This document shows positions 2,234 through 30,387 of a stretch of DNA of 64,000 nt, one piece after another. Location of the stretch: assembly GCA_016839055.1 (NCBI GenBank), contig JAEKNX010000010.1:62001-126000 (forward strand). Direction: 5' to 3'. The notes below the pieces were generated by a model. That model was not told the DNA's origin. It worked only from the letters and a program-made list of their open reading frames with translations, and searched no databases. The position numbers and the translations under genes are program-made. Origin of the DNA: Spirochaetales bacterium. GTDB lineage: Bacteria > Spirochaetota > Spirochaetia > UBA9216. Each line of letters starts with the position of its first letter. Within the stretch, counting starts at the first letter, position 1.

Positions 2234-3225
2234 TGGCTGATAATATACTACTACAGGTCAGAAACCTGAAAATGCACTTCCCGATTGAAGAGGGAATTTT
2301 ACTTAGAAAGAAGGTCGGCGCAATCAGGGCCATAGACGGTATAGATTTAGATATAGAGAAAGGGGAGACTCTCGGCCTCGTAGGCGAGTCCGGCTGTGGA
2401 AAATCGACTACCGCCAGATGTATAGCCCAGCTTCACAAGCCTACCGGAGGAGAGGTTCTGTTTCAGGGGAAGGACCTCTGTAAAGCCACCGGATCTGAGC
2501 TGCTGAGCGCCCGAATGGGAATACAGATGATTTTCCAGGATCCTTATGCGTCGCTGAATCCGAGAATGACGGCGGGAAATATTATTGCTGAGCCGATGGT
2601 GATCTACCGTGAACGCAAGATGCTTGATATAAGCAAGAAAGAGATAACATCGAGGGTTGAGGATCTGATGGAAAAGGTAGGCCTTTCCAAACATTTCAAG
2701 AACCGTTATCCTCATGAATTTTCAGGAGGCCAGCGCCAGAGAATAGGTGTTGCAAGGGCTCTCTCCCTGAATCCAAAACTGATTCTGGCTGATGAGCCGG
2801 TTTCCGCTCTTGATGTCTCAATTCAGTCGCAGATTCTTAATCTTCTCGATGATCTTCAGAAAGAATTTGATTTAACATTTCTCTTTATTGCCCACGACCT
2901 GGCGGTAATTCAGCACATCAGTACAAGGGTGGCTGTCATGTACCTCGGCAGGATTGTCGAGATTTCAACTGCTGAGGAACTCTATAAGAAGCCTCTTCAC
3001 CCATATACCGAGGCACTGATGTCGGCTGTTCCAATACCTGATCCGGATATTGAGCGAAACAGGAAGAGAATCATCCTTACCGGGGATGTTCCGTCTCCCG
3101 ATAAAGAGCGTTTCGGATGTTATTTTTATGACCGATGTCCAAAGAGGATGGAGAAGTGTAAGAGCAGCATCCCTCAGCTTAAGGTAATGGAGGGCAAGCA
3201 TCAGGTTGCCTGTTTTCTGCATTAA
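2233..3225 (+). CDS. oppF: Oligopeptide ABC transporter ATPase OppF/DppF
   Basis: This is the second ATPase of the peptide importer. It shows Walker A GESGCGKST, MIFQDPYASLNPRM, signature FSGGQRQRIG, Walker B LILADEPVSALD and the H-loop IAHDLAV. The C-terminal oligo_HPY extension contains HPYTEALMSAVP and the cysteine set RFGCYFYDRCPKRMEKC ... ACFLH, matching OppF. It is the last gene of the operon visible here. The next gene lies on the opposite strand and ends six bases away, and no clear terminator hairpin is visible between the convergent ends. The substrate-binding protein is not in this window. Confidence 0.95.
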   Translation: MADNILLQVRNLKMHFPIEEGILLRKKVGAIRAIDGIDLDIEKGETLGLVGESGCGKSTTARCIAQLHKPTGGEVLFQGKDLCKATGSELLSARMGIQMIFQDPYASLNPRMTAGNIIAEPMVIYRERKMLDISKKEITSRVEDLMEKVGLSKHFKNRYPHEFSGGQRQRIGVARALSLNPKLILADEPVSALDVSIQSQILNLLDDLQKEFDLTFLFIAHDLAVIQHISTRVAVMYLGRIVEISTAEELYKKPLHPYTEALMSAVPIPDPDIERNRKRIILTGDVPSPDKERFGCYFYDRCPKRMEKCKSSIPQLKVMEGKHQVACFLH

Positions 3226-3231
3226 TAAGAA

Positions 3232-3774
3232 CTAATCATTTTTGACAAGGGGGATTCCGCAGAAGTCTGCGAGAATCCCCGCTTTATTCTGGAGTCCTTC
3301 GGTTGTTCGGCTGTCAAGAGCCTCAAGGGTATCTCTATTGCCCGACTTAAAGTTCAGCCGCAGTTCCTGATGCCAGCGTTTATGGATAATCTTGGGCCCC
3401 CGCTGTGAGACTTCCGCCATGTTTTCGGCTGAGAAAGGGCGGCTGAGGTTTATTTCATGATCCGCCTTTCCGTCGGATTTTGCCCCCCGGAGGAAGAACA
3501 TCAGCTCGAAATTCTGGATTTCGGCGAATGAATAAACCCTCTTCCTGTGAAGAAAAACCAGTCCAAATCTGGATGTTATTATTCTCTTGCCGCTGTCGAA
3601 GGTCCACGACTCTTCGTAGAGGGCTGCAACAAGACAAACCATGCCAACGATAATCGGTACAAAGAGTCTCTCGGCATCAGATTCATCCGCGACGACCGCG
3701 ATTACCCCCCAGACGAGAACGCCAAAAAGGATTAGGAAAATTATCCGGAACCAGAATGCCGGGGAATAGGTCAT
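3232..3774 (-). CDS. Hypothetical membrane protein with two N-terminal TM helices
   Basis: This is an unrecognised membrane protein. Two hydrophobic helices sit at the N-terminus (FWFRIIFLILFGVLVWGVIAVV and LFVPIIVGMVCLVAALY). A soluble domain of about 110 residues follows that begins WTFDSGKRIITSRFGLVFLHRKRVYSFAEIQ. This pattern resembles the PH-like domain of small bacterial two-helix membrane proteins in the YcxB/DUF304 style, which is an inference from shape only. I prefer the ATG at 3774 (180 aa) because GAGGA lies just upstream. An in-frame ATG at 3831 would give 199 aa but has no ribosome site. It is convergent with oppF and has no obvious functional partner. Confidence 0.6.
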   Translation of the reverse strand: MTYSPAFWFRIIFLILFGVLVWGVIAVVADESDAERLFVPIIVGMVCLVAALYEESWTFDSGKRIITSRFGLVFLHRKRVYSFAEIQNFELMFFLRGAKSDGKADHEINLSRPFSAENMAEVSQRGPKIIHKRWHQELRLNFKSGNRDTLEALDSRTTEGLQNKAGILADFCGIPLVKND

Positions 3775-4094
3775 GATATCCTCGGATTTTCTGCGTAAAA
3801 TAAGGTTCAGTTTAAACAAACTGCTCTCCATTTATTATTAGTTTAATAATCATAGACTAATAAAATATAGGGGTAAAAGCAAGTAATGATAAAAAGAATG
3901 AGCAATTCTGAATTTGACTGCAATTTCCCCGAATGTCGGCCCTTGCTGACCCCGACACCATCAGAAAAAGGTTCGGAAGACCTCAATTTTATTTGTTCCG
4001 ACATTTCTCTTCGCTGAACGTGAAACCTTTACAGTTCCCGGCCTGTATCTGGTTTCGGCGGCCGGGAGTTGCGATAAGGATGAGGAGATTGTTT

Positions 4095-4811
4095 TCAGTA
4101 TTTCTCTGCGACAGTGAGGATTGAAGCAGTCTCGCCGAAGGCATCTATTGTCTTGCTGTCATTAAGAGGATCCGCGAGAGAAGTTCCGTCTACAATGAAT
4201 TTATATTTATATTTACCTTCCCGTGCTCTTATCGTATAGGTATAGGTCCCGGAGCCCCCTGATTCTCTCATCCTGAACATATAAGGCTCCCAATTGTTGA
4301 AGTCGCCGTATACGTAGACCCTCTGGCCGGGGTTGCCGTTATAGATGAAGGTTATTTGTTTCCCGCTAGTTTGCGGAGATTCCGGCGGACCGGCTTTCTC
4401 CGGGACAGTGAAGCTGGAGAGTGAAATTCCGCCAAGGCCTCTGCTTGTTACTGGGTTCTCAGGATCAGTCATCCAGAGTCCGTCGACTACAATTCTGTAA
4501 TCAAGATTCTTCATATCCTCTTTAAGCGGGTAGGTTAAGACATAAACACCATTGGTATTGATGTAAAACGGATGAATTTTTTTGAAATCTTCATGCTGGA
4601 AGGCTGCCCCGACAAAACGGTACCGTCTCGCGCCCTTGTAAGTTAAAACCAGGTGGTTGTCGATTAGTTCAGGGGGGGAGGCGTCGGTGGCCTCGGTAAT
4701 CGCAAAATGCAGTCTTACTGTCACACGTTCTGCCGAGACCGAAGCAGCAGTCAGAAACAGAAAAAGCAGTGAGAGAATTATTATCTGTGAAAAAGTATGT
4801 CGTGTAATCAT
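4095..4811 (-). CDS. Exported protein with two glycogen-binding (CBM48/AMPK-beta-like) modules
   Basis: A signal peptide (about residues 1-27, ending AASVSA) precedes two immunoglobulin-like modules. The second (about 150-238) is a clear AMPK-beta/CBM48 type: ITFIYNGNPGQRVYVYGDFNNWEPYMFRM ... YTIRAREGKYKYKFIVDGTSLADPLN. The first (about 29-135) is a divergent copy, with a matching YRIVVDGLWMTDPENP. In characterised proteins this fold binds alpha-glucans or acts as a docking domain; no catalytic domain is present here. It is probably periplasmic or surface-located. It is divergently oriented from the FlcA-like gene across 129 bases. The function is not known; the module assignment is firm for the second copy and tentative for the first. 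Confidence 0.75.
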   Translation of the reverse strand: MITRHTFSQIIILSLLFLFLTAASVSAERVTVRLHFAITEATDASPPELIDNHLVLTYKGARRYRFVGAAFQHEDFKKIHPFYINTNGVYVLTYPLKEDMKNLDYRIVVDGLWMTDPENPVTSRGLGGISLSSFTVPEKAGPPESPQTSGKQITFIYNGNPGQRVYVYGDFNNWEPYMFRMRESGGSGTYTYTIRAREGKYKYKFIVDGTSLADPLNDSKTIDAFGETASILTVAEKY

Positions 4812-4940
4812 TGTTCTCTTATTAGTTTCGGTTCTGCTCTGTGAATGCTTGACTGATTAATCCGAGATGATAATTATAAACTTGAGTCAATTGTCTTAAT
4901 TAATCCTAACTCATCGCTTTAAATATTCCGAAATTCAAAT

Positions 4941-7900
4941 ATGCCCGAAATTCGCGAAATCGATGAGTTTAAGAATGAATTTATCCAGCTTGGAAATGAA
5001 CCGGAGATAAGATCTCAGCGCGGTGAACCTCTTCCGAACATAACTGTGCCTGAAATCGCTGAGACAGATGATCTGAGCGCATTGTTTGATGAGTCCAATG
5101 AGTCTGCCGGTGAATCTGAGGATGCCATGGAAACCCCCGATGATTTACTCTCCGGACTTTTCGAAGAAGAAGATGATGATATAGAGCCCGTGGAGTTTGA
5201 TTCCACGGAAGATGAAATCGTCGAAGATTCGCCTGACGAAGAACCCGTTGATGACGGCCTTGAGGAATTCGGTGATCTGGATGAACTTGATTTTAGTGAA
5301 GAAGATGGCGCTCTGGAGGCTGTAGAGGCAGCAGAGGAAGCCGAACCGGCAGAAGATGAGTTCGGTATTCCAGAAGGCCTGACAGGCGGCTTAGAGGACG
5401 ATCTCGAACCACTGGAAGAAGCACCCGAGGACGAAGTCGGCATTGATGATGCGGTTTCTGAACCCGAAACACCTGAGTCGGAAGATTTTGATTTTGATAC
5501 TGATTTTCCTGAAATAGCGGACTTTGAATCTGAGCTTGAAGAGATAAGTGAAGAGATAAGTGAAGAGATAAGTGAAGAGATAAGTGAAGAATCCCCAGAA
5601 GAGGTAATTGAGCAGTCCCATGCAGAGGAGGATGTTTCTTTTGACTCATTCGACGAGATCGCGGACTTTGACAGCCTTGATATGGATGACGAGCCGGGGC
5701 TGCCTGGTGAGGATGAACCGGCGGATACCGGTTACGATTTTGATACTGATGAGAGTTTTTCCGAAACGGAAGAGCTTCCTGAAAGCACAGATGACTTCAG
5801 TTTCGATGATATGGAAGCAGCCGGCGGAGATGAGTTTTCTGATGATGATTTCAGCCTTGAGGATTTCAGTCTCGGTGAAATTGATGGGGATGATATAGAG
5901 GCTACCGAGTTCAGCCTGGGAGATCTGGGGCAGGAATTCGGTATAGATGACGCAGTCGAGACAGGTGTCGGTCAACTGGAAGATGTTGTTTCTCCGCTTG
6001 GGGCTGACGGAGGTGAATTTGGTGACGCCTTTGACGATGACAGCTATGCTGTCCCTGATGATGAATGGATTGGACTGAAGAAAACACTCGGTCAGATGCC
6101 GAGAAATTTGAAGATATTGATAGAGGAGCTGATAGGAGAGAAGAATCTTTCCGGAGAAAATCTTGACAAGCTTCTCAAGGCTTTAATCCGAGGGGCAGGG
6201 GCAAAGGAAATTGCAGCAATTGTATCAAAGATAACCGGTAAAAAGGTTAAGATCCCGATACAATATGAGCGAAGGACAGCTGCGGAATTTGAGAAGGAAA
6301 AAAGCACCTTTGGTTATGCATTCAGGAAAAATTTTATTCCTATGTTCAGGACTGCTGCTCTGGTGGCTGCCGCGCTGGGCCTTTTGATATTTGTCAGTTT
6401 CAGATTTATTTATAAACCGCTTCATGCGGAATCTCTCTACAAGAAAGGCTGGGAGGAGATCTACAATGGAAACAACCAGCAGGCAAATGCCTATTTCGAT
6501 CGGGCATTCAGCGAATTGCGGAAGAGAGACTGGTTTTATAAATATGCCGAGGCTTTCGCGGAGAACAAGCAGTATGTTAATGCTGAGGAAAAATATGAAC
6601 AGCTATTGGGCTGGTATCCGGGGGACAGGGATGGGCTTCTTGACTATGCCGAACTCGAGTTCAAGACTCTTGGGAAGTATCCTGAGGCTGAAGCGTTATT
6701 AAAGAAACAGCTTTTTGAGGATCAGCTCGACTATGACGCCAGATTGATGCTCGGAGATACTTATATGGAATGGGCACGAGAGATTGACCCTTTACTATAT
6801 GAAGAAGCCCGTTTTAACTATGCCAAGCTGCTGGAACAATACGGAGGACAGAACAGCCTTTTATTCCGCATGCTCCGCTATTTTATCAGGACGGATAATT
6901 ATGATGAGGCAATGATTCTCTATGAGGCCTTTCAGGGAAATTCAAAAGCAAAGGTTGAACCTGATATTTATGCCGAACTTGCAGGTTATCTGATAGATAA
7001 TAATCACATGGAAGATGTCAGAGAAATCCTGATGAATGCCAGGTCGATTCAGGAAGATCTTCCGGAGATTCATTATGAATTTGCCAGATATTTTGATATA
7101 CTCGACATTCCGGCCGAGGAGGAAAAAGCTCTGCTTGCGGCGCTATGGCTCTTTGAGAACACTGATCCTCTTACCAGAACCAGGACGGGACTCCTTATTG
7201 ATACATATAATAGATATGGCAAGATTCTTTATGAGAAAGAGTTGTATCTTGACGCAGAAGAAAATTTCAGTAAGGCGGCGCTGAATTATGAGGACGCCCT
7301 GTTGAACGGGCAGCTGAAGCCCGACCCGAAATACGGCACAATATATTCAAATCTTGGAGATCTTGCCTACTACATCAGTGGGAATTATGATCAGGCTCTT
7401 AGTTTTTTCGAGAAAGCGGAAAAGAACGGATATTCTCCATTTAATTTAAAATACAAGAAGGGTTACGTCTATTACTCAAAAGAAGATTTCCGCAAGGCCC
7501 TCGTTGAGTTCTATGATACAGCCGGAGGTTTCTCGGTAGATAAGCAGCTTCTATATTCTACAGCTAACACCCTATTTAACCGTAATGACTATTATCTGGC
7601 TGAAGGATATTATACTCATCTGCAGGACCTTCTTGAGAAAGAATATTCATCGATCAGCTATCTCCTGATTAATGAAGTTCCAGAGCACCGGATTCTGCTT
7701 GAAAATATGATGAAGGTCAGCAATAACCTTGGGGTTACAAAATACAGGCTGTATGAACGTAATCGGGATCCTGAAAAAAATGCCGAGGCAATGGTTCTCC
7801 TGACAGAAGCGACTGAGTTCTATGACAAGCTTGTACGTGATCCAAATTCACTCATAGAACCTGAGACTGTAAATCTCTCCTATCTTAATTCGAAGGCCGT

Positions 7901-18084: not shown

Positions 18085-18756
18085 GTGAAGGTTATAAGTG
18101 TCATTTTTCTTAGTTTGTTAGTTGCCTTTTCTGTTTCTGCGACGGGAAAGTCTGAAGAGGTTTCGGGGCCATCAGGTGCCGTTGAAGGCGGGTTGAGGGT
18201 TCTGGAAGTTGCCGATGGAAGTGATCAGCTCAATTATACAATTTATCGGGGCGATTATATAGTTTTTAATTTTGCAGAGGACGGAAGTTTTGATTTCACG
18301 GTTCCTGAACTTGAGATAAATGAAGTTGTGCCCAAACCTGAAGGGGAAACATCCTATATTAAAATGAAAAAAAGCGGTGACTATTCTTTTACTCTTGGTG
18401 ATCGCAGAGGCGTTTTTCATATTCTGGAACTGGAATCACAGAATTACCATGAACTTTCAGCTTCTGAAGCATCAGATTTGATTGAGAATGTTAAGCCGCT
18501 GGTACTCGATGTGCGGACTAAATCAGAATTTGATTCAGGCCATATCTCAGGCGCGAACCTGCTTCCAGTGCAGGTCTTCGCTGAAAATATAGACAGACTG
18601 GCAGAGTATAAGGATCAGGATATTCTGCTTTACTGCGCCTCGGGAAACCGAAGCACTGTAGCGGCAAAAATGCTGATCGATGCGGGTTTTTCCAGGGTTT
18701 ACAATCTCCGTCATGGTATTGGTGACTGGGTTCGGAACGCTCTGCCTGTAGAGTAA
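18085..18756 (+). CDS. Exported cupredoxin-like plus rhodanese protein
   Basis: A signal peptide (1-19, SVSA-TGKSEE) is followed by a beta-rich domain (about 38-116: DYIVFNFAEDGSFDFTVPELEIN ... GDYSFTLGDRRGVFHILELE). This resembles a cupredoxin fold, but no His/Cys/Met copper ligands are visible. A rhodanese domain follows (125-223), with LVLDVRTKSEFDSGHISGA and the catalytic loop CASGNRS, Cys184. Rhodanese domains transfer sulfane sulphur or act as thiol sensors; an exported one probably works in the periplasm. The GTG start at 18085 is fixed by AGAGGAG. The fusion is seen in the sequence; the cupredoxin assignment is tentative. Confidence 0.8.
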   Translation: MKVISVIFLSLLVAFSVSATGKSEEVSGPSGAVEGGLRVLEVADGSDQLNYTIYRGDYIVFNFAEDGSFDFTVPELEINEVVPKPEGETSYIKMKKSGDYSFTLGDRRGVFHILELESQNYHELSASEASDLIENVKPLVLDVRTKSEFDSGHISGANLLPVQVFAENIDRLAEYKDQDILLYCASGNRSTVAAKMLIDAGFSRVYNLRHGIGDWVRNALPVE

Positions 18757-21669: not shown

Positions 21670-21914
21670 ATAAGACAAAAATCATAAAGCTCTCAGGGCT
21701 GAAGCCGGATGAGAAGGCGATCATCTCCGGTTACAGTCAGGGTAAGAAGGAGTATCGTAGAAAGCTCCTTTCATTCGGTCTTACTCCGGGAACGGAAATA
21801 ACCATGAAAAAAGCAGCTCCGCTCGGAGACCCGGTTGAAATATCTTTACGGGGATATAGCCTGAGTCTTAGAAAGGCGGAGGCCGAAGTTCTTGAATTGG
21901 AGAGAAAGATATGA
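21666..21914 (+). CDS. feoA: FeoA-like ferrous iron transport protein (second copy)
   Basis: An 82-residue second FeoA (LSGLKPDEKAIISGYSQGKKEYRRKLLSFGLTPGTEITMKKAAPLGDPVEISLRGYSLSLRKAEAEVLEL). This copy matches the family core better than the first, including the GDPVEI...G..L.LR segment. ATGA overlaps at both ends tie feoA1, feoA2 and feoB into one translationally coupled operon. Tandem feoA genes are found in several anaerobes. Confidence 0.92.
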   Translation: MNKTKIIKLSGLKPDEKAIISGYSQGKKEYRRKLLSFGLTPGTEITMKKAAPLGDPVEISLRGYSLSLRKAEAEVLELERKI

Positions 21915-24211
21915 GCATTGCAGTTAAAGGGAAAACACTGACGATAGCTCTGGCAGGTAACCCGAACTGCGGCAAGACTACCATCTTCAATGGCCTTACC
22001 GGCGCCACCGCAAAGGTTGGTAACTGGCCGGGAGTAACCGTCGAGCGGAAACAGGGAGTCTTCAGAGACGGTGATCGGGAATTCAATATTGTCGATCTTC
22101 CGGGAATTTACAGTCTCTCAGCGGAGTCCGAGGATGAGCGTGTATCGCGGAACTTCTTAATAAGCGGTAATGTCGATCTAGTCGTTAGCATTGTTGATGC
22201 CGCGAATCTTGAGCGAAACCTGTTTTTAACAATTTCCCTTATTGAAAGCGGAGTTCCGGTCATCTTGGCTCTTAACATGATGGACTCAGCCGAGAAAGAA
22301 GGAATACAGGTCAATGCAGCCGAACTGTCAAGGCAGCTGGGATGCCCTGTATTTCCGCTATCAGCGGTAAAGAAAGACAGCCTGAATCTGTTTAAGGAAG
22401 GTCTGAAGAAAGAATTATCCATGGAGAGAAGGCCTCGCTCGGGGAATCTGATAAAGTATATTCCTGAGATTGAAAATATTGTTACTTCCTGGGATCGAAA
22501 GATGACCTATGCCGCGGCGGAACTTAACCTTAATTCGAGGTTTCTTTCGCTGAATCTGCTGGAGGGAGATGATTATATCAGATCTCTTGTCACGGACATT
22601 ATAACAGGAGAAGAGATTGATGCAAAAATTGAGGTTCTTGAATCGAACTTGAGTAAGGGTGCCGATATGTTAATTTCCGAGGGGCGCTACAGCTGGATAA
22701 CATCAGTCTGCGGGAAATGCATAAAGCATCCGGAAGAGAAAAAAATGGGGTCAGGCCGGGCTGATAAAATTATGATGCACAGGTTTTTTGGGATACCGAT
22801 ATTTATAGCTGTAATGTATCTGGTTTTCTGGGTGACTATGAGCATCGGGGGCTCCTTCATCGATTTTTTTGATATTATCTTCGGTGGAATATTTGTCGAC
22901 GGACTCGGCGCCTTGATGGGCAGCCTTGGAAGCCCTGAATGGCTCATATCGCTTATTGCAGGCGGAATAGGCGGCGGTATACAGACTGTCTCAACCTTTG
23001 TTCCGATAATTTTTGTGATGTTTTTCATGCTGGCGATACTCGAGGACTCGGGTTATATGTCGAGGGCCGCCTTCGTGATGGACAGAGCGATGATGGCTGT
23101 CGGGCTGCCGGGTAAGGCCTTTGTGCCGATGCTCGTAGGCTTTGGTTGTACCGTTCCCGCGATAATGGCAACGAGGACTCTCGAATCAAAGAGAGACAGG
23201 TTTATGACCATTTTCATGACTCCCTTCATGTCGTGCGGGGCGAGACTCCCTGTCTACGCGCTTTTTACCGCTGCTTTTTTCGGTACGAAATCAGGAGGCG
23301 TGGTCTTTTCCATTTATCTATCTGGAATAGTCCTTGCAATTCTGACGGGAATGCTTCTTAAAAACAGCATTTTTAAAGGAGAATATTCTCCCTTCGTGAT
23401 GGAACTTCCCGATTATCACATGCCGAGATTTGCCCAGATTTCAAAGTCTGCCTGGCACAGGCTGAAGACTTATGTCTTTCGAGCGGGAAAGGTGATTATC
23501 CTTGTTGTCCTCGTGCTTGCATTTTTTAACTCACTCGGCTTAGACGGCAGTTTCGGGAATGAGGATTCGGAAGATTCTGTACTTTCTGTAGTCGGAAAGG
23601 CCGTCACACCTGTGTTTTCCCCTATGGGGATAAAAAAGGAGAACTGGCCGGCTACAGTAAGCCTTTTTACCGGGCTCTTCGCGAAGGAGGCTGTTGTCGG
23701 GACACTTAACTCCCTTTATTCACGGGGGGCTGAGGAGAATGAGGCTGAAGCAGATGACCCATGGGCTCTTGGGCCGATTTTTGCGGATGCCTTCGTGACC
23801 CTGGGCGGCAACCTTGCCGGAGTTTTTGACGGCCTCAAAGACCCCTTCGGTCTGGGAATAATCAGCGGAGATGAAGCGCAGGCCCGTGAAGAACTTGAAG
23901 CGGATGACAGCGTCTTTAACGGACTCAGGGCAAACTTTACCCCGGTCAGCGCCTATGCCTATCTCCTATTTATCCTGATATACTTCCCCTGTATAGCGGC
24001 TCTCGGGGCGGCAATTCAGGAAACAGGCCGGGCTTATGGGGTGTTGCTTGTTACTTATCTGACCCTCCTTGCCTGGATAGTCTCCACACTCTTCTATCAG
24101 CTTTTTGAGGGAGGTTCTGTAGTCTGGATTATTGTATCAATTGCTCTTGCAGCGGGAATCTACTTCTCTTTTAAGCTGATGGGCAGGAAGTCAAGAGCTG
24201 CATTGAAATGA
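21911..24211 (+). CDS. feoB: Ferrous iron transport protein FeoB
   Basis: A 766-residue Fe(II) transporter in the inner membrane. The N-terminal G domain has G1 GNPNCGKTTIFN, the switch region VGNWPGVTVERK, G3 DLPGIYSLSAES and G4 ALNMMDSAEK. The membrane part contains two Gate-type segments: YMSRAAFVMDRAMMAVGLPGKAFVPMLVGFGCTVPAIMATRTLESKRDR and GLFAKEAVVGTLNSLY. The cysteine in GFGCTVPAI is the conserved pore cysteine. Full length. It ends with a strong terminator at 24222-24249. Confidence 0.97.
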   Translation: MSIAVKGKTLTIALAGNPNCGKTTIFNGLTGATAKVGNWPGVTVERKQGVFRDGDREFNIVDLPGIYSLSAESEDERVSRNFLISGNVDLVVSIVDAANLERNLFLTISLIESGVPVILALNMMDSAEKEGIQVNAAELSRQLGCPVFPLSAVKKDSLNLFKEGLKKELSMERRPRSGNLIKYIPEIENIVTSWDRKMTYAAAELNLNSRFLSLNLLEGDDYIRSLVTDIITGEEIDAKIEVLESNLSKGADMLISEGRYSWITSVCGKCIKHPEEKKMGSGRADKIMMHRFFGIPIFIAVMYLVFWVTMSIGGSFIDFFDIIFGGIFVDGLGALMGSLGSPEWLISLIAGGIGGGIQTVSTFVPIIFVMFFMLAILEDSGYMSRAAFVMDRAMMAVGLPGKAFVPMLVGFGCTVPAIMATRTLESKRDRFMTIFMTPFMSCGARLPVYALFTAAFFGTKSGGVVFSIYLSGIVLAILTGMLLKNSIFKGEYSPFVMELPDYHMPRFAQISKSAWHRLKTYVFRAGKVIILVVLVLAFFNSLGLDGSFGNEDSEDSVLSVVGKAVTPVFSPMGIKKENWPATVSLFTGLFAKEAVVGTLNSLYSRGAEENEAEADDPWALGPIFADAFVTLGGNLAGVFDGLKDPFGLGIISGDEAQAREELEADDSVFNGLRANFTPVSAYAYLLFILIYFPCIAALGAAIQETGRAYGVLLVTYLTLLAWIVSTLFYQLFEGGSVVWIIVSIALAAGIYFSFKLMGRKSRAALK

Positions 24212-24221
24212 GAATATTTGA

Positions 24222-24249
24222 CCCCCGCGGTTATGCCGCGGGGATTTTT
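24222..24249 (+). terminator. Terminator after feoB
   Basis: CCCCGCGG and CCGCGGGG form a perfect 8-bp stem with loop TTATG, followed by ATTTTT. The next gene starts only 17 bases beyond it. Confidence 0.92.
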
Positions 24250-24253
24250 GGTG

Positions 24254-24259
24254 TAGAAT
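24254..24259 (+). promoter_or_regulatory. -10 box of the DtxR-like gene
   Basis: TAGAAT ends six bases before ATG 24266 and lies just after the feoB terminator. The -35 position is weak (TTATGC at 24231-24236). Transcription would start at the ATG itself. Confidence 0.4.
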
Positions 24260-24265
24260 TAAAAT

Positions 24266-24958
24266 ATGGAAACAGAAAAAGAGCTGACAATTGCAGATCT
24301 GAATGAAAAGTATCCCGCCGCGCTTGAGTATTTAACAGAAATATTTTTAATACATCGGGATTATGGACTCGTAAAAAATTCGGTCATTGCCAAACGGCTG
24401 GGTGTCTCGAAGCCGGCTGTGACCCAGGCAATGAAGCGGCTTAAAAAGTACAGCCTCATAGAACAGGATCTCTACGGCTCTATACTTCTGACCCCCGCAG
24501 GCCGGCGTGTGGCCGCCAAGGTACTCAAGAGACATTATCTGATAGAGCACCTTCTTATTCATCAGCTTGATTATCCCTGGGTAAAGTCCGACGAAGAAGC
24601 CGCGCGGATACAGGCAACTCTATCTGATGAATTTACCGATTATCTTTTCGAGTTTTTTAACAGACCTGATTTCTGTCCGCATGGAAATCCTTTTCCGGGC
24701 TCCGTGTCCGAAAAAAAAACTCTCTCTGCGCCGCGTCTTTCTTCCGCGGTGTCCGGAACAAGGGGCCTTATCGTGCGCATTACCGAAGAGGGCGAGGTAG
24801 CAGACGGACTTCTGCAGTTTTGCTATGAAAATCGGATGCAGCCCGGAGTTGAGTTTGTTATTCTTAAAACATCCGGAGATTTTGTGACAGTCCGGCTTGG
24901 AGAAATTAAGATTGACATCCCTTCAGGCATTGCCGATTTTATCTGTTTTACCGAATAG
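24266..24958 (+). CDS. DtxR/MntR-family regulator with an altered metal-binding helix
   Basis: A 230-residue regulator. The winged helix is LVKNSVIAKRLGVSKPAVTQAMKRLKKYSLIEQDLYGSILLTPAGRR. A dimerisation domain (KRHYLIEHLLIHQLDYPWVKSDEEAARIQATLSDEF ... FCPHGNPFPG) and a C-terminal FeoA/SH3-like domain follow. Compared with C. diphtheriae DtxR from memory, the site-one residues His79 and Glu83 are kept (RHYLIE). His98, Cys102, Glu105 and His106 are replaced by Asp, Ala, Gln and Ala. It probably controls feo through the palindrome at 21365, but its metal response may be unusual. It has no ribosome site and is separated from feoB by a terminator. Confidence 0.88.
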   Translation: METEKELTIADLNEKYPAALEYLTEIFLIHRDYGLVKNSVIAKRLGVSKPAVTQAMKRLKKYSLIEQDLYGSILLTPAGRRVAAKVLKRHYLIEHLLIHQLDYPWVKSDEEAARIQATLSDEFTDYLFEFFNRPDFCPHGNPFPGSVSEKKTLSAPRLSSAVSGTRGLIVRITEEGEVADGLLQFCYENRMQPGVEFVILKTSGDFVTVRLGEIKIDIPSGIADFICFTE

Positions 24959-25020
24959 AGTTAATTCTTATCTCATCAGCATGCCCTAATTTAACTAATA
25001 CGTTTTTTACTGAGGAACAT

Positions 25021-25049
25021 TTGCAATTGGATAGATTAAAATTTACAAT
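25021..25049 (+). promoter_or_regulatory. Promoter of the soluble PAS kinase gene
   Basis: TTGCAA (25021-25026), 17 bases, TACAAT (25044-25049), then eight bases to ATG 25058. There is no ribosome site, so a leaderless or near-leaderless message is expected. Confidence 0.5.
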
Positions 25050-25057
25050 TAAACAAG

Positions 25058-27490
25058 ATGCTATCTGAAAACTCTAATGAACAGGATTCAGAATACCTGC
25101 GAAAGCGGGTTTCTGAACTTGAGCAGCAAAATGAAATCTACAGAGAATCTCAAAGAAAACTGACACGTTTCAGGAAGGTTCTTAAATGCCTCCGTCTGAT
25201 TAACAGGCTCATTATAACAGAAAAAGATTCCGGCAGACTTATCCGGAAGACCTGTGAGTATCTGATAAAATACCGGAACTATTATAATGCCTGGATAATT
25301 CTATTCGGCGAGGACGGCAGATATGAGACTTCCGCAGAAGCCGGTCTTGGGGAAAAATTCCATTTGCTTCGGGCAAATCTTGAAAAAGGTGTTGTTACTG
25401 AATGCTGCCGCCTGGCCATCGATAGTCCGGCTGTGAATATTGTTGACAATACTGCTAACAGCTGCCCTTATTGTCCAAATAAAGACCTTCATGTAAACAA
25501 GGCGGCCATGACAGTCCGGCTTTCTTATGAGGGCCGGATATATGGAACTCTCACGGTCTCCATCCCTGTTGAATATGCCGGAGATGAGGAGGAAATTGAA
25601 ATAATTGCCGATACAGCGGCTGATTTAGGATTTGCTCTTCACACTCTCTGGGCTGAAGAAAAGACCCGTCTGTTTGACTACATAATAAAAACACTTCCTC
25701 AGACCTTTTCTTTTCTGTCTTTAGATTTTACCTATCTTGCGGTTAGCAATATTTATTCTAAATTATTCAATGCCCCTTTGGAGAACATTATCGGGCATAA
25801 GATCGCCGAATTTTTTGATGAAGAGACCTTTGAGGGTAAAATTCGGCCAATGCTGGAGCGGTGCGCGGCGGGTGAGACTGTTGCCTATGATTTGGAGTTG
25901 AATTTACAGACTTTCGGTACCCGCTGGATGCATATGTGCTACTACCCTTATATTAACGGCAGCGGTAGCTTAGGTGGAATTATCTCACATGGAATGGATA
26001 TTACTGAAAGGAAGGCTGCCGAAAGTGAGCTGCGCAAGTTTAAGACAATCAGTGATAATGCCCTTCACGGAACTGTTCTTGCCGATCTCCAGGGACGGCT
26101 TATCTACATAAATAACTATTTTGCGAACATTCACGGCTATACGCCTGAGGAGCTCATAGGAGAACATCTTGCAGTCTTTCACACTGATAATCAGCTTGCC
26201 GATGTCATAGAAATAAACCAAAGGCTTCTGATTGAGGGAAGTTATGAGATGGCTGAAGTATGGCATAAGCACAGGGATGGAACAGTCTTTCCAATGCTTA
26301 TGAGCGGCCTTGTTCTTGATGATGACCGGGGAGTGCCCGCGTTTACAGCCGCGACGACAATTGATATCACCGGTCTCAAGAAAATCGAGAAGCAGCTCAT
26401 CGAAAGTGAAAGTAAGTACCGTTATTTGGTTGAGACCGCCTCTGATATAATAAAACAGATCTCCGCAGACGGTATAATTACTGAGGTGAATGAATATACT
26501 TGCAGCCGCCTCGGACGCAGGAAAGAAGAGCTGGTCGGTCAGCCGATAACTGTCGTAGATCCGAATTATTCAGTTGCAGCCTTCAAAGATTTTTGGGCGG
26601 ATTTTCCCATTAACAAGCAGCGGGTTTTTGAAACAACCCATCAGGAAAAAGGCGGGAGTGTTTTTTCGGTGGAGGTTCACGCAAAAAAATACAAGGTTAA
26701 TGAAAGTACCTTTATCATGAGCGTTGCCAGGGATATCTCTGATCGAAATAGGGATAGAAAGAGGCTGGTTCTGGCCCTTGAACGCGCGGAAGAAGCCGAC
26801 AGGCTTAAGTCGGCATTCCTTGCTAATATGAGCCACGAGATACGCACTCCCCTAAACGGGGTTCTCGGTTTTGCATCGCTGATGAATGATCCGACAATAT
26901 CGCCGATAAAACAAGAACAGTATTATAATATCATTGTGAAAAGCGGAAAGCGTCTGCTAACGACTATCAATGACCTGATCGATATCTCGAGGATTGAGTC
27001 AGGCCTTGTTGAGGTTGATCTGTCCGATATCAGCATAAAGGAACTATTTGAAGATTTATATCAGTTCTTCTCTCCCGAAGTCGCGGATAAGAACCTCAGG
27101 TTTGAGCTTGAAATTCCTGAGGAGTGTGAAGATGCGGTAATAAACTCTGACAGGGATAAACTTTATGCTGTAATGATGAACCTGTTGAAAAATGCCGTAA
27201 AGTTCACAAAAGAGGGCAGCATCTTATTTGGATATCTCTGTCAACCGGACAGAATTGAGTTTTATGTTACGGATACCGGAAATGGTATTCCTAAAGATCA
27301 AATTGATGCGGTCTTTGATCGCTTCATCCAGGCTGATCTGAGTCTGACTAAACCTTTTGAGGGCTCAGGGCTAGGGCTTTCAATCAGCAGTGAATACGTG
27401 GAAATGCTCGGCGGAAAAATAAGCGTGGAGTCGTCGGAAGGAAGGGGCTCGAAGTTCTCTTTTTCACTCCCTAGTCGACTTGAGGATTAG
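25058..27490 (+). CDS. Soluble GAF/PAS sensor histidine kinase
   Basis: An 810-residue kinase without membrane helices. A short coiled coil (1-40) leads into a GAF-like domain (about 60-205), which holds a cysteine cluster CCRLAI ... CPYCPNKD that might bind metal or an Fe-S centre. Three PAS domains follow (about 205-320, 325-445, 450-565). The histidine box FLANMSHEIRTPLNGVLGF (His593) and a full ATPase domain (NLLKNAVKFT, VTDTGNGIPKDQ, GSGLGLSISSEYVEMLGG) end the protein. No receiver is attached and no response-regulator gene is adjacent, so the partner is unknown. The ligand is unknown; multiple PAS domains suggest cytoplasmic redox, oxygen or small-molecule sensing. Confidence 0.9.
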   Translation: MLSENSNEQDSEYLRKRVSELEQQNEIYRESQRKLTRFRKVLKCLRLINRLIITEKDSGRLIRKTCEYLIKYRNYYNAWIILFGEDGRYETSAEAGLGEKFHLLRANLEKGVVTECCRLAIDSPAVNIVDNTANSCPYCPNKDLHVNKAAMTVRLSYEGRIYGTLTVSIPVEYAGDEEEIEIIADTAADLGFALHTLWAEEKTRLFDYIIKTLPQTFSFLSLDFTYLAVSNIYSKLFNAPLENIIGHKIAEFFDEETFEGKIRPMLERCAAGETVAYDLELNLQTFGTRWMHMCYYPYINGSGSLGGIISHGMDITERKAAESELRKFKTISDNALHGTVLADLQGRLIYINNYFANIHGYTPEELIGEHLAVFHTDNQLADVIEINQRLLIEGSYEMAEVWHKHRDGTVFPMLMSGLVLDDDRGVPAFTAATTIDITGLKKIEKQLIESESKYRYLVETASDIIKQISADGIITEVNEYTCSRLGRRKEELVGQPITVVDPNYSVAAFKDFWADFPINKQRVFETTHQEKGGSVFSVEVHAKKYKVNESTFIMSVARDISDRNRDRKRLVLALERAEEADRLKSAFLANMSHEIRTPLNGVLGFASLMNDPTISPIKQEQYYNIIVKSGKRLLTTINDLIDISRIESGLVEVDLSDISIKELFEDLYQFFSPEVADKNLRFELEIPEECEDAVINSDRDKLYAVMMNLLKNAVKFTKEGSILFGYLCQPDRIEFYVTDTGNGIPKDQIDAVFDRFIQADLSLTKPFEGSGLGLSISSEYVEMLGGKISVESSEGRGSKFSFSLPSRLED

Positions 27491-27556: not shown

Positions 27557-28060
27557 GTGAAGAGTAAAGGTTTTGTAGTTATAATAATTTTTTTATTAAT
27601 ATCGGCATCCGGTCCTCTGTTCGCAGTTGAAGTCGGAGAGAATGCGCCGGCTTTTGTCCTGACAGACATTGATAAAAACTATGTTTTCTCGAAAAAACTA
27701 TACGGCACAGGCTGGGTTCTGGTAGATTTTTATGCAACCTGGTGTGAAAACTGCAATGAAGAACTTCCCTATATTGAAGAACTATATGATGATTTTGCCG
27801 ACAGTGGTTTTCAGGCAATGCTGCTTGCCACCGATGATGAGGGGCATTCCGTTGTTAAGCCGTATTTCGCGTCGGCTCCGACTACACTCACTGTCCTGAT
27901 TGATAAATATAAGAAGGCGGTAGGATCATTCGGTGTTCAGGCCCTCCCTTCACTTTTTCTGGTTGATCCGGATGGGAAGATTGCGTTTAAATCAGTCGGA
28001 TACCATGAAGAGGATATTGTGAGTCTTCGGGCAATTCTCGCAGAAGCCTATAATGAATAA
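27557..28060 (+). CDS. TlpA/ResA-like exported thioredoxin
   Basis: A signal peptide (1-23, GPLFA) precedes a thioredoxin fold of the TlpA type: VGENAPAFVLTDIDKNYVFSKKLYGTGWVLVDFYATWCENCNEELPYIEELY. The redox pair is Cys63-Glu-Asn-Cys66, and the cis-proline loop is FGVQALPSLFLVDPDGKI. It would act in the periplasm as a thiol-disulfide reductase or oxidase. The GTG start is preceded by AGGTGAG. It overlaps the next gene by eight bases, so it belongs to a three-gene unit with a CcdA-type electron conduit. Confidence 0.92.
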   Translation: MKSKGFVVIIIFLLISASGPLFAVEVGENAPAFVLTDIDKNYVFSKKLYGTGWVLVDFYATWCENCNEELPYIEELYDDFADSGFQAMLLATDDEGHSVVKPYFASAPTTLTVLIDKYKKAVGSFGVQALPSLFLVDPDGKIAFKSVGYHEEDIVSLRAILAEAYNE

Positions 28061-28967
28061 GCGAGCCGCGGGAATGAGGACAGTCCTTGTCTCTGCCTTG
28101 CTGCTGCTTTTTCCAATAATAGGGCTCTCCGCCGATCCTGATCTGTCCATCTATTATACGGCTTCCCTGAACGGCAATCTCATCGGCTGTCAGTGTAGGG
28201 GGGTGCCAAAGGCCGGGCTCTCGACTACCGCCGCCTATCTGCGCAGCCTTGATCCCTCGCGGTCAATTCTCCTTGATCTGGGTGATTTCAGCGACGCCAG
28301 GGTTGATGAGCTCCTGTCTGGCAAGCTGCTGGAACTTTATAGCGACCTCGGATATTCCGCTTCGGCCCTGGGTGATCAGGAGCTCGGCTCCGGACTTGAT
28401 TATTTTAAAAAATCGGCAGAGGACTTCAACTTTCTCTGCAACAATATAAAGATTGAAGGGCGCAGTCTCAGTAATGGCCCGATGATCATCGAGAAGCAGA
28501 GAATTAAAATCGGAATAGCCGCCGTGATAGACCCGGCAGTGTTTTTTTTCTACCCAGATGATGTGAAAAGCAGGATAGAGATCTCCGATCCTGCTGAGGC
28601 CGCTTCCGAGGCGCTGGCAGAACTCAAGGCCGCCGGCAGCAGCTATAATATTTTGCTGTTTCACGGCCATGCAGAGGAAGCCCGGGCTGTTTTCGACACT
28701 GAAACAGGCTGGGATGCAGTCCTTTTTGCCCATGATCAGATGCTGTTTGATGAAAAGACTGATAACCGTATCTTTGCCTCCCCAGGCGAAGAAGGCAACC
28801 GCGTGGGACGGCTCGACCTTTTTTTTCGGTTCAGGAAACTCAGCAAAGCCGAGAACAGTATGAGATACTTCAAGTATGAGGCGGATCCTGAAGACCCAGA
28901 AGTTCTTCAAGTATTCGAGGATTATAAAAAGGAACTGATAGAAAACCTTAAGAATGGAAAAAAATAA
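28053..28967 (+). CDS. Exported metallophosphoesterase/5'-nucleotidase-like protein with a CxC motif
   Basis: A signal peptide (about 1-27) leads a 304-residue protein whose motif order follows the UshA/5'-nucleotidase phosphoesterase domain. YTASLNGNLIGCQC stands where HTNDLHG is usual, then LLDLGDFSD, GYSASALGDQEL (for GNHE), LCNNI, ILLFHGHAEE and DAVLFAHDQ. Several metal ligands are changed (His to Ser/Asn in the first motif, Asn-His to Asp-Gln), so hydrolysis is doubtful. Cys46-x-Cys48 follows strand one, as in CGC-type relatives found beside cytochrome genes. It may handle sulphur or metal rather than nucleotides. It is coupled to neighbours on both sides (8- and 14-base overlaps). Confidence 0.65.
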   Translation: MNKRAAGMRTVLVSALLLLFPIIGLSADPDLSIYYTASLNGNLIGCQCRGVPKAGLSTTAAYLRSLDPSRSILLDLGDFSDARVDELLSGKLLELYSDLGYSASALGDQELGSGLDYFKKSAEDFNFLCNNIKIEGRSLSNGPMIIEKQRIKIGIAAVIDPAVFFFYPDDVKSRIEISDPAEAASEALAELKAAGSSYNILLFHGHAEEARAVFDTETGWDAVLFAHDQMLFDEKTDNRIFASPGEEGNRVGRLDLFFRFRKLSKAENSMRYFKYEADPEDPEVLQVFEDYKKELIENLKNGKK

Positions 28968-30387
28968 ACGGGTCCTTGTCTTATCTATATTTATTCTGAT
29001 ATCGGCCGCTGTCTCCGGATTTGCCGACGGCGGGCTTGAGCTTAGTATTACAGAATGGGATACCGGCCTGCTCGAAGCAGGTGTGATCCCCGAGCAGGCG
29101 GTTGAGATAACAAATAACACCGAAAACGCCGTCGAGATAAACCTTATAAGCACATGCAGCTGTTTGACCACTTCGGCGGATCTTCTCTCCATCGCGTCCG
29201 GGGATAGCGGAACTTTCACGCTTTTTTTCGACAGCTCCGATGATGAGGGTGATTTCGAAAAGATTCTGATAATCCAGACCGACTCCGATGAAATGCCGAA
29301 AGGCTTTTTTCTTGTAAGGGGGAGTGTCGATGTACCGGAAAAATCGGCCGAACAAGCCAGGGGCAGTGAAGGCTCCGCGAACATTCCTGCCGGCAGCGGG
29401 CTTGAGTATTACTATACGCCCGGATGCAAGAGCTGCAATGAGTTTTTGAGAAAGGCAGAAATTGCTATAGAAAAATTTGATATCACGGAACCTCAATATT
29501 ATGAGCAGCTCCAGAGACTGCTCTCCGATCGCGGAGCTTCACTTAGAGAAGTACCCGTGATGGTTACTTCTGATTCGATCTTTCAGGGAGAGATGGAGAT
29601 TCGTGAAGCTTATGAGGCCCTCCTTGAGGGCCGGAGTATCAGGGAGGCTGTTAATTCAGGAACGCCAAAGCCGGGCGGGATATCGCTTTCCGTACTGCCT
29701 GTAATGGTCGCCGGCCTCCTTGACGGGATTAATCCCTGCGCGTTTACGACCCTGATTTTTCTTTTAAGCGCGCTTGCAGTCGCCGGCCGCAGCCGCCGTG
29801 AGACCCTTATTATCGGACTCTTTTTCACTGTCTCGGTTTTTATAACCTATTATCTTATAGGACTCGGGTTTTTTAAGATAATCAGGATTGCTGATTCCTT
29901 CGAGCTTGTAAGCAGGATTATCAGATGGGTTCTTTTTTCTGTCCTGATTCTTTTCGCGGTCTTAAGTTTCTATGACTATACAAAGATCCGCGCCGGTAAG
30001 GCGAAAGATATTCTTTTGCAGCTGCCCGGCAGCGTGAAGCGCAGGCTGCACTCATCAATCCGGACATATTCCAAGTCCGCCGCCCTTGCCGGGTCTTCAG
30101 TTGTCATGGGAATCCTCATCTCCATCTTCGAGCTTGGTTGTACCGGGCAGATTTATTTCCCGACTATAGCCTACATCATTCAGACTGATGAGGCCTCCTC
30201 GGGTTATCTGTACCTGGCCTTATACAACCTTGCTTTTATCCTGCCGCTTGCGGCCGTCTTCGTCATCGTTTTCTTCGGGGTTACATCAAAAAAGATTACA
30301 AAAATGTTTCAGACCAATCTCGGCATAATAAAGATTCTGACTGGTCTACTGTTTCTCGGTTTCGCCGCTCTTATGCTGCTCCTATAG
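28954..30387 (+). CDS. DUF1573-glutaredoxin-CcdA three-part fusion
   Basis: A 477-residue membrane protein. The signal sequence (1-24) is followed by a DUF1573/ASH-like immunoglobulin domain (28-125) with Cys68-Ser-Cys70. A glutaredoxin-like domain follows (150-225) with YTPGC158KSC161NEF and cis-Pro EVPVMV. A CcdA/DsbD-type six-helix conduit (245-477) has its two conserved cysteines in LDGINPC262AFTTLIF and IFELGC396TGQIYFP. CcdA proteins carry electrons from cytoplasmic thioredoxin across the membrane. Here the acceptor domains appear built in, and the TlpA protein of the same operon is a likely further acceptor. Domain order is seen; electron flow is inferred. Confidence 0.85.
   Translation: MEKNKRVLVLSIFILISAAVSGFADGGLELSITEWDTGLLEAGVIPEQAVEITNNTENAVEINLISTCSCLTTSADLLSIASGDSGTFTLFFDSSDDEGDFEKILIIQTDSDEMPKGFFLVRGSVDVPEKSAEQARGSEGSANIPAGSGLEYYYTPGCKSCNEFLRKAEIAIEKFDITEPQYYEQLQRLLSDRGASLREVPVMVTSDSIFQGEMEIREAYEALLEGRSIREAVNSGTPKPGGISLSVLPVMVAGLLDGINPCAFTTLIFLLSALAVAGRSRRETLIIGLFFTVSVFITYYLIGLGFFKIIRIADSFELVSRIIRWVLFSVLILFAVLSFYDYTKIRAGKAKDILLQLPGSVKRRLHSSIRTYSKSAALAGSSVVMGILISIFELGCTGQIYFPTIAYIIQTDEASSGYLYLALYNLAFILPLAAVFVIVFFGVTSKKITKMFQTNLGIIKILTGLLFLGFAALMLLL

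Follow-up and report, generated by a model that had tools for sequence, protein, structure and literature searches.

What does a spirochaete gain by placing a thioredoxin, a phosphoesterase-like protein with a CxC motif and a three-domain membrane protein in a single run of overlapping genes, and where might electrons travel in such a set? The question is raised by the 64,000-nucleotide stretch of DNA from a Spirochaetales bacterium analysed here (the window), in which an earlier note had described three overlapping genes and their cysteines. Both the genes and the cysteines were confirmed (Table 1).

Table 1. Positions in the window of the three genes, their domains and their cysteine motifs
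Feature	Position	Strand	Remarks
TlpA/ResA-like periplasmic thioredoxin	27557..28060	+	GTG start, 167 aa; CxxC C63-C66, codons 27743-27754
UshA-fold (calcineurin-like metallophosphoesterase fold) extracytoplasmic protein with CxC	28053..28967	+	304 aa
Codons of the Cys46-Gln-Cys48 motif in the UshA-fold gene	28188..28196	+
DUF1573-glutaredoxin-CcdA membrane protein	28954..30387	+	477 aa
DUF1573 Ig/PapD-like domain, residues 25-128	29026..29337	+	CxC C68-C70 at 29155-29163
Glutaredoxin-like domain, residues 148-232	29395..29649	+	CxxC C158-C161 at 29425-29436
CcdA/DsbD-type six-helix conduit, residues 244-477	29683..30384	+	C262 (29737-29739) in TM1, C396 (30139-30141) in TM4

The tlpA and UshA-fold genes overlap by 8 bp and the UshA-fold and fusion genes by 14 bp, which suggests that translation of the three is coupled. 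All five other genomes of the genus or family that carry the CxC gene have the trio in the same order, with identities of 41-69% for the CxC and fusion proteins. Such conservation goes far beyond chance. A scan of the operon for promoters and terminators gave a signal near background.

Upstream of the operon, at 21911-27490 of the window, lie genes encoding FeoB, a DtxR-type metal regulator and a PAS/GAF histidine kinase, and this linkage is kept in the genus. Iron control of the operon via FeoB and the DtxR-type regulator was considered and rejected, as the linkage is limited to the genus. In genus relatives, a GNAT acetyltransferase gene that is absent from the window lies between the histidine kinase gene and tlpA (L044:4041-4535, L045:4038-4499 and L058:4101-4553). 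Some 9 kb before the operon, the window also encodes a rhodanese-domain protein (18085-18756).

The TlpA-like protein matches Pfam AhpC-TSA/Redoxin (2.8e-19) and, below the cut-off, NCBIfam ResA (6e-27). Its sole cysteines, C63 and C66, are both invariant in six relatives.

The membrane fusion protein

The fusion protein has exactly six cysteines, which make up three pairs (C68/C70, C158/C161 and C262/C396). Among 30 fusion proteins, C68, C70, C158, C161 and C262 are invariant, with the reservation that C158 and C262 lay inside the patterns used to search for the loci and their invariance is partly built in; C396 is found in 29, the remaining protein having an unresolved letter at this site. 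The search patterns did not select for C68/C70, C161 or C396. Loss of the C158/C161 pair from relatives had been named beforehand as an observation that would speak against a redox relay, and the pair is present in all 30.

The DUF1573 domain (PF07610) is recognized with 31.4 bits against a gathering cut-off of 26.1 (1.9e-7), and Foldseek places this N-terminal domain with HYDIN/PapD-like and MSP Ig domains (2.3e-7). The glutaredoxin-like (Grx) domain matches NCBIfam GlrX_YruB (0.0016), and its relatives give Grx/Trx Pfam matches. For the conduit, the genome search gave a match to DsbD_TM (PF02683; 8.2e-5) of 23.1 bits, below the cut-off of 27.1, and the best NCBIfam match, also below cut-off, is an ArsG-type CcdA relative. 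In the structural model (pLDDT 84), a beta-sandwich is followed by a Trx-like domain and then by the six helices of the conduit; the pTM of only 0.58 is too low for the inter-domain geometry to be read from it. Loop charges, following the positive-inside rule, place the N-terminus of the protein outside. In a PDB sequence search with the fusion protein no match was significant (a MasB protein came up, with E 0.24), and a search of the plasmid collection gave weak partial matches only.

The earlier note had regarded DUF1573 within a CcdA fusion as unusual, a view that does not survive the comparison with relatives: in the tree, 29 of 76 have DUF1573 fused to Grx-CcdA and, by record title, they come from about nine phyla, most of the records being metagenome-assembled, so that single taxon names may be wrong. 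The DUF1573-Grx-CcdA architecture is common, though apparently undescribed, and in the literature searched we found no mention of DUF1573 and CcdA together.

The DUF1573 dithiol is not constant throughout. Eight relatives in a spirochaete clade (L060, L061, L063-L065, L067, L070 and L076) keep Grx-CcdA and carry a DUF1573-like domain without the CxC. Their Ig domain is homologous to that of the fusion protein (hhalign 97%, 1.4e-11), and thus the dithiol can be lost, or is dispensable, in these organisms. None of the eight has an adjacent UshA-CxC gene, as against 12 of the 30 proteins with a CxC-bearing DUF1573 domain (Fisher p 0.039, a statistic that ignores kinship), which hints that the presence of the DUF1573 dithiol goes with the UshA-CxC partner. 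Downstream of the fusion gene in L053 there are genes encoding GcvH-like, lipoyl synthase-like and lipoate ligase-like proteins; homologues follow in L059, and a homologue of the first one in L056.

The UshA-fold protein and its dithiol

No Pfam family matched the UshA-fold protein. Its best NCBIfam match is UshA_like_PCGU (NF041198; 6.7e-15), with 54.6 bits against a cut-off of 275; the match spans profile positions 22-276 of 519, and the second half of the profile is missing. The best of the tested relatives score 184 against the same cut-off. The SoxB model TIGR04486 gives 10.8 bits, the cut-off being 550. In the AF2 model (pLDDT 90.8), the protein has the fold of the 5'-nucleotidase catalytic domains, which are the best Foldseek matches (3.5e-20, TM 0.79).

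The protein has three cysteines, C46, C48 and a non-conserved C129. The CxC follows the first metal motif, at the position where NF041198 proteins have CxC or CxU. C46 and C48, which were not part of the locus search patterns, occur in all 47 non-Sec members of the UshA-CxC family (n = 49), and they are invariant, together with G41, G55 and G77, in 22 aligned UshA-CxC proteins.

The metal site is less well preserved. Alignment with solved cyclic-phosphodiesterase and nucleotidase chains maps the UshA residues D41, H43, D84, N116, H117, H217, H252 and H254 (in what we take to be the numbering of E. coli UshA) to S38, N40, D78, D108, Q109, H204, H227 and Q229. Equivalents of D84, H217 and H252 are kept and N116 is replaced by Asp; D41, H43, H254 and the catalytic H117 are replaced. 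The protein does not have the two-metal ligand set with the catalytic His (DxH, D, NHE, H, GHxH). As judged from sequence, the M1 ligands are gone and an M2 half-site (D78, D108, H204 and H227) is kept. Across the 49 family members, the commonest residues are Ser at position 38, Asn at 40, Gln at 109 and Gln at 229.

These results bear on three points of the earlier note. It had made its reading depend on C46 and C48 being conserved in orthologues, which they are, and on orthologues not having intact phosphoesterase ligands, of which there are none among those with the CxC. Its description of a protein that replaces most phosphoesterase ligands holds for the M1 ligands and the catalytic His and is overstated as regards M2, where the half-site remains.

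Since 42 of the 49 members keep D78, 44 keep H204 and 41 keep H227, the UshA-fold protein could still be an active, SoxB-like mononuclear metallo-hydrolase that acts on a sulfur-containing substrate. The CxC would then regulate the enzyme or carry the substrate as an S-adduct, and TlpA and the conduit would reset it, much as SoxV and SoxW reset Sox proteins. Several relatives have SoxB as their second-best match among curated families, and rhodanese neighbours occur in other families, both of which would suit such an enzyme. We nevertheless consider it unlikely, because no member has the catalytic His (Gln or a different residue takes its place), and because M2 is lost wholly or partly in the L039, L041, L042, L069, L086 and L098 genes, whereas the CxC (or its UGA form) is retained. 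The dithiol is thus a more constant feature of the family than the metal site.

Fusions, selenocysteine forms and the predicted electron route

Domain fusions connect the UshA-fold protein with the other components of the operon. Nine loci, which come from Omnitrophota, Spirochaetota and WOR-3 (L069, L073, L084, L086, L088, L091, L092, L097 and L102), encode a Grx-CcdA protein with UshA-CxC at its N-terminus. The tree of conduit domains needs three changes to account for this fusion, and may also be compatible with one origin. A TlpA-UshA fusion is encoded upstream of DUF1573-Grx-CcdA in L066 and L087, and in L034 a single gene, next to one for TlpA, joins UshA-CxC to a Grx-like domain.

In L098, two adjacent UshA-like genes (2881-3846 and 4543-5502) each have a reading frame that is open except for one TGA, at the CxC site, where the first reads U-G-C and the second C-P-T-U. 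The second gene stops 4 bases short of a Grx-CcdA gene, and the genome encodes a tRNA-Sec above the curated cut-off. Both genes probably encode selenoproteins, and standard gene prediction would cut them short. Reviews include UshA-like proteins with CxU and a DUF1573 form with UGC among the selenoproteins (PMC13188914, PMC2398784). The host genome of the window also has a tRNA-Sec above the cut-off (G000:C10:167293-167379), yet the operon encodes Cys only. Together, the gene fusions and the UGA forms strengthen a redox reading of UshA-CxC.

A different arrangement occurs in other spirochaete families: in 17 of 28 loci (L015-L036, L039), the genes after UshA-CxC encode, in place of CcdA, a rhodanese anchored in the membrane and a MauE/DoxX-like protein that has a CGC motif. 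These neighbours belong to those families and not to the window operon; the pairing points to sulfur/thiol redox.

The most probable reading, in our view, is that the trio is a dedicated extracytoplasmic thiol-reduction operon. Cytoplasmic thioredoxin would supply electrons to the CcdA-type conduit (C262/C396), from which they would pass through the glutaredoxin domain (C158/C161) to the terminal donor, the Ig-fold DUF1573 domain (C68/C70). In the periplasm this domain would have two partners to reduce, one being the TlpA-like thioredoxin and the other the CxC of the UshA-fold protein. The UshA-fold protein would be a former two-metal hydrolase in which the dithiol just after the M1 position serves as a catalytic or acceptor centre. 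Most likely it would reduce or cleave a small sulfur-containing substrate, our best guess being a persulfide or a thiosulfonate-like compound. A path from the CcdA conduit through the built-in glutaredoxin and DUF1573 to the CxC protein or TlpA had been put forward in the earlier note, and cysteine conservation, the fusions and the UGA forms argue for it. The comparisons show the anatomy of the operon, the conservation, the fusions, the UGA forms and the fold, and they support the route well; its direction and order we infer from them, and the substrate is a guess. The CxC could alternatively be oxidising or metal-binding.

The CxC is a common soft-metal motif, and metal-thiol handling would give the operon another role: the CxC motifs of the UshA-fold protein and DUF1573 would bind a soft metal or metalloid (Cu, Hg, As or Fe), the conduit would keep their thiols reduced, and the whole would act in chaperoning or detoxification. 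The ArsG-type match of the conduit, below cut-off as it is, would fit this role, as would the suggestion that Sec residues are metal ligands in other selenoprotein families (PMC13188914). The operon does follow FeoB and the DtxR-type regulator in the genus, but this linkage is confined to the genus and the neighbourhoods of L046, L047, L049-L051 and L054 differ. Moreover, the conserved unit contains no metal transporter, chaperone or Mer/Ars gene, and direct fusion to Grx-CcdA suits disulfide turnover better than storage, so that metal handling seems to us distinctly improbable.

It is very improbable that the operon serves disulfide reduction in the periplasm at large, or the maturation of cytochrome c in the ResA/CcdA manner, with the UshA-fold protein as an accessory. 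A TlpA/ResA-like protein with CcdA is a classical pair and DsbD feeds CcmG (PMC3961690), but the cytochrome c assembly protein PF01578 has no match in the host genome (97% complete; control positive in 9 of 14), on which ground cytochrome c maturation was rejected. The genome already encodes DsbD in its canonical form and, next to a thioredoxin-like gene, a second small protein resembling CcdA, and the physical fusion of UshA-CxC to the conduit in other lineages indicates that its presence is not incidental.

Returning to the thiol-reduction reading, a broader proposal is possible, though we hold it only tentatively. DUF1573 may be a second, independently evolved Ig-fold thiol oxidoreductase and DUF1573-Grx-CcdA a convergent, permuted DsbD, driving a new class of reductase in which the two-metal phosphoesterase site has become a centre of one metal and a dithiol (or a selenol-thiol pair). 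DUF1573 would be the second Ig-type domain, of a different family, in this role, which would suggest that the Ig/Trx/conduit machine was built twice, and the altered site would be a clear example of a hydrolase fold that has probably been converted to redox use. Lists of selenoproteins have included the UshA-like CxU protein since 2008, and DUF1573 selenoproteins are catalogued as well, in both cases with no function assigned. New here are the occurrence of both CxC modules in one operon and, elsewhere, the fusion of UshA-CxC to a transmembrane reductant conduit, which provide the two with a joint predicted electron donor that can be assayed.

Comparison with known systems

In E. coli, DsbD passes electrons from thioredoxin to its membrane domain, from there to the Trx-fold cDsbD and the Ig-fold nDsbD, and finally to DsbC and CcmG (PMC3961690). 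Like DsbD, the fusion protein has an Ig-like domain with a Cys pair, a Trx-fold domain with CxxC and a conduit with cysteines in TM1 and TM4 (C262/C396, conserved in 29-30 of 30), and as DsbD has a TlpA/CcmG-type protein among its clients, so the window operon encodes a TlpA-like protein. Unlike DsbD, whose order is Ig-TM-Trx, the fusion protein has the order Ig-Trx-TM, with no C-terminal Trx-fold domain; its Ig domain is DUF1573 (PapD/HYDIN-like, with CxC), which is unrelated to the DsbD_N (PF11412) of DsbD, and its TM part is weakly related to that of DsbD. In the Pfam search PF11412 was absent from the fusion protein; another protein of the host genome, L132, has it. Lacking DsbD_N and having a different domain order, the fusion protein is not a member of the DsbD family: that it works like DsbD is well supported, that it is a DsbD is not. 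Since a canonical DsbD (DsbD_N, DsbD_TM, Trx) is encoded elsewhere in the host genome, as is the small CcdA-like protein, DUF1573-Grx-CcdA looks like a dedicated second route.

The SoxB/SoxV/SoxW system likewise combines a UshA-fold periplasmic protein, a CcdA-type conduit and a TlpA-like thioredoxin, but the window protein scores far below the SoxB cut-off and does not have the SoxB metal set. A genome search for SoxY (PF13501) gave 0 matches, but the control also matched nowhere. With the CcdA and ResA/CcmG branch of cytochrome c maturation, the operon shares a CcdA-type conduit and a TlpA-like thioredoxin; it differs in adding the DUF1573, Grx and UshA-CxC modules, in a host genome without the cytochrome c assembly protein.

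The NF041198 UshA-like (seleno)protein is the best curated match, with the same fold and the same position of the CxC/CxU motif. The window protein differs from it in its low score, in the absent second half of the profile, in being the Cys form and in its replaced M1 ligands. Finally, the UGC form of DUF1573 (PF07610) has the same domain with a C-x-C-type motif as the fusion protein, whereas the form in the window has Cys and is built into a conduit protein.
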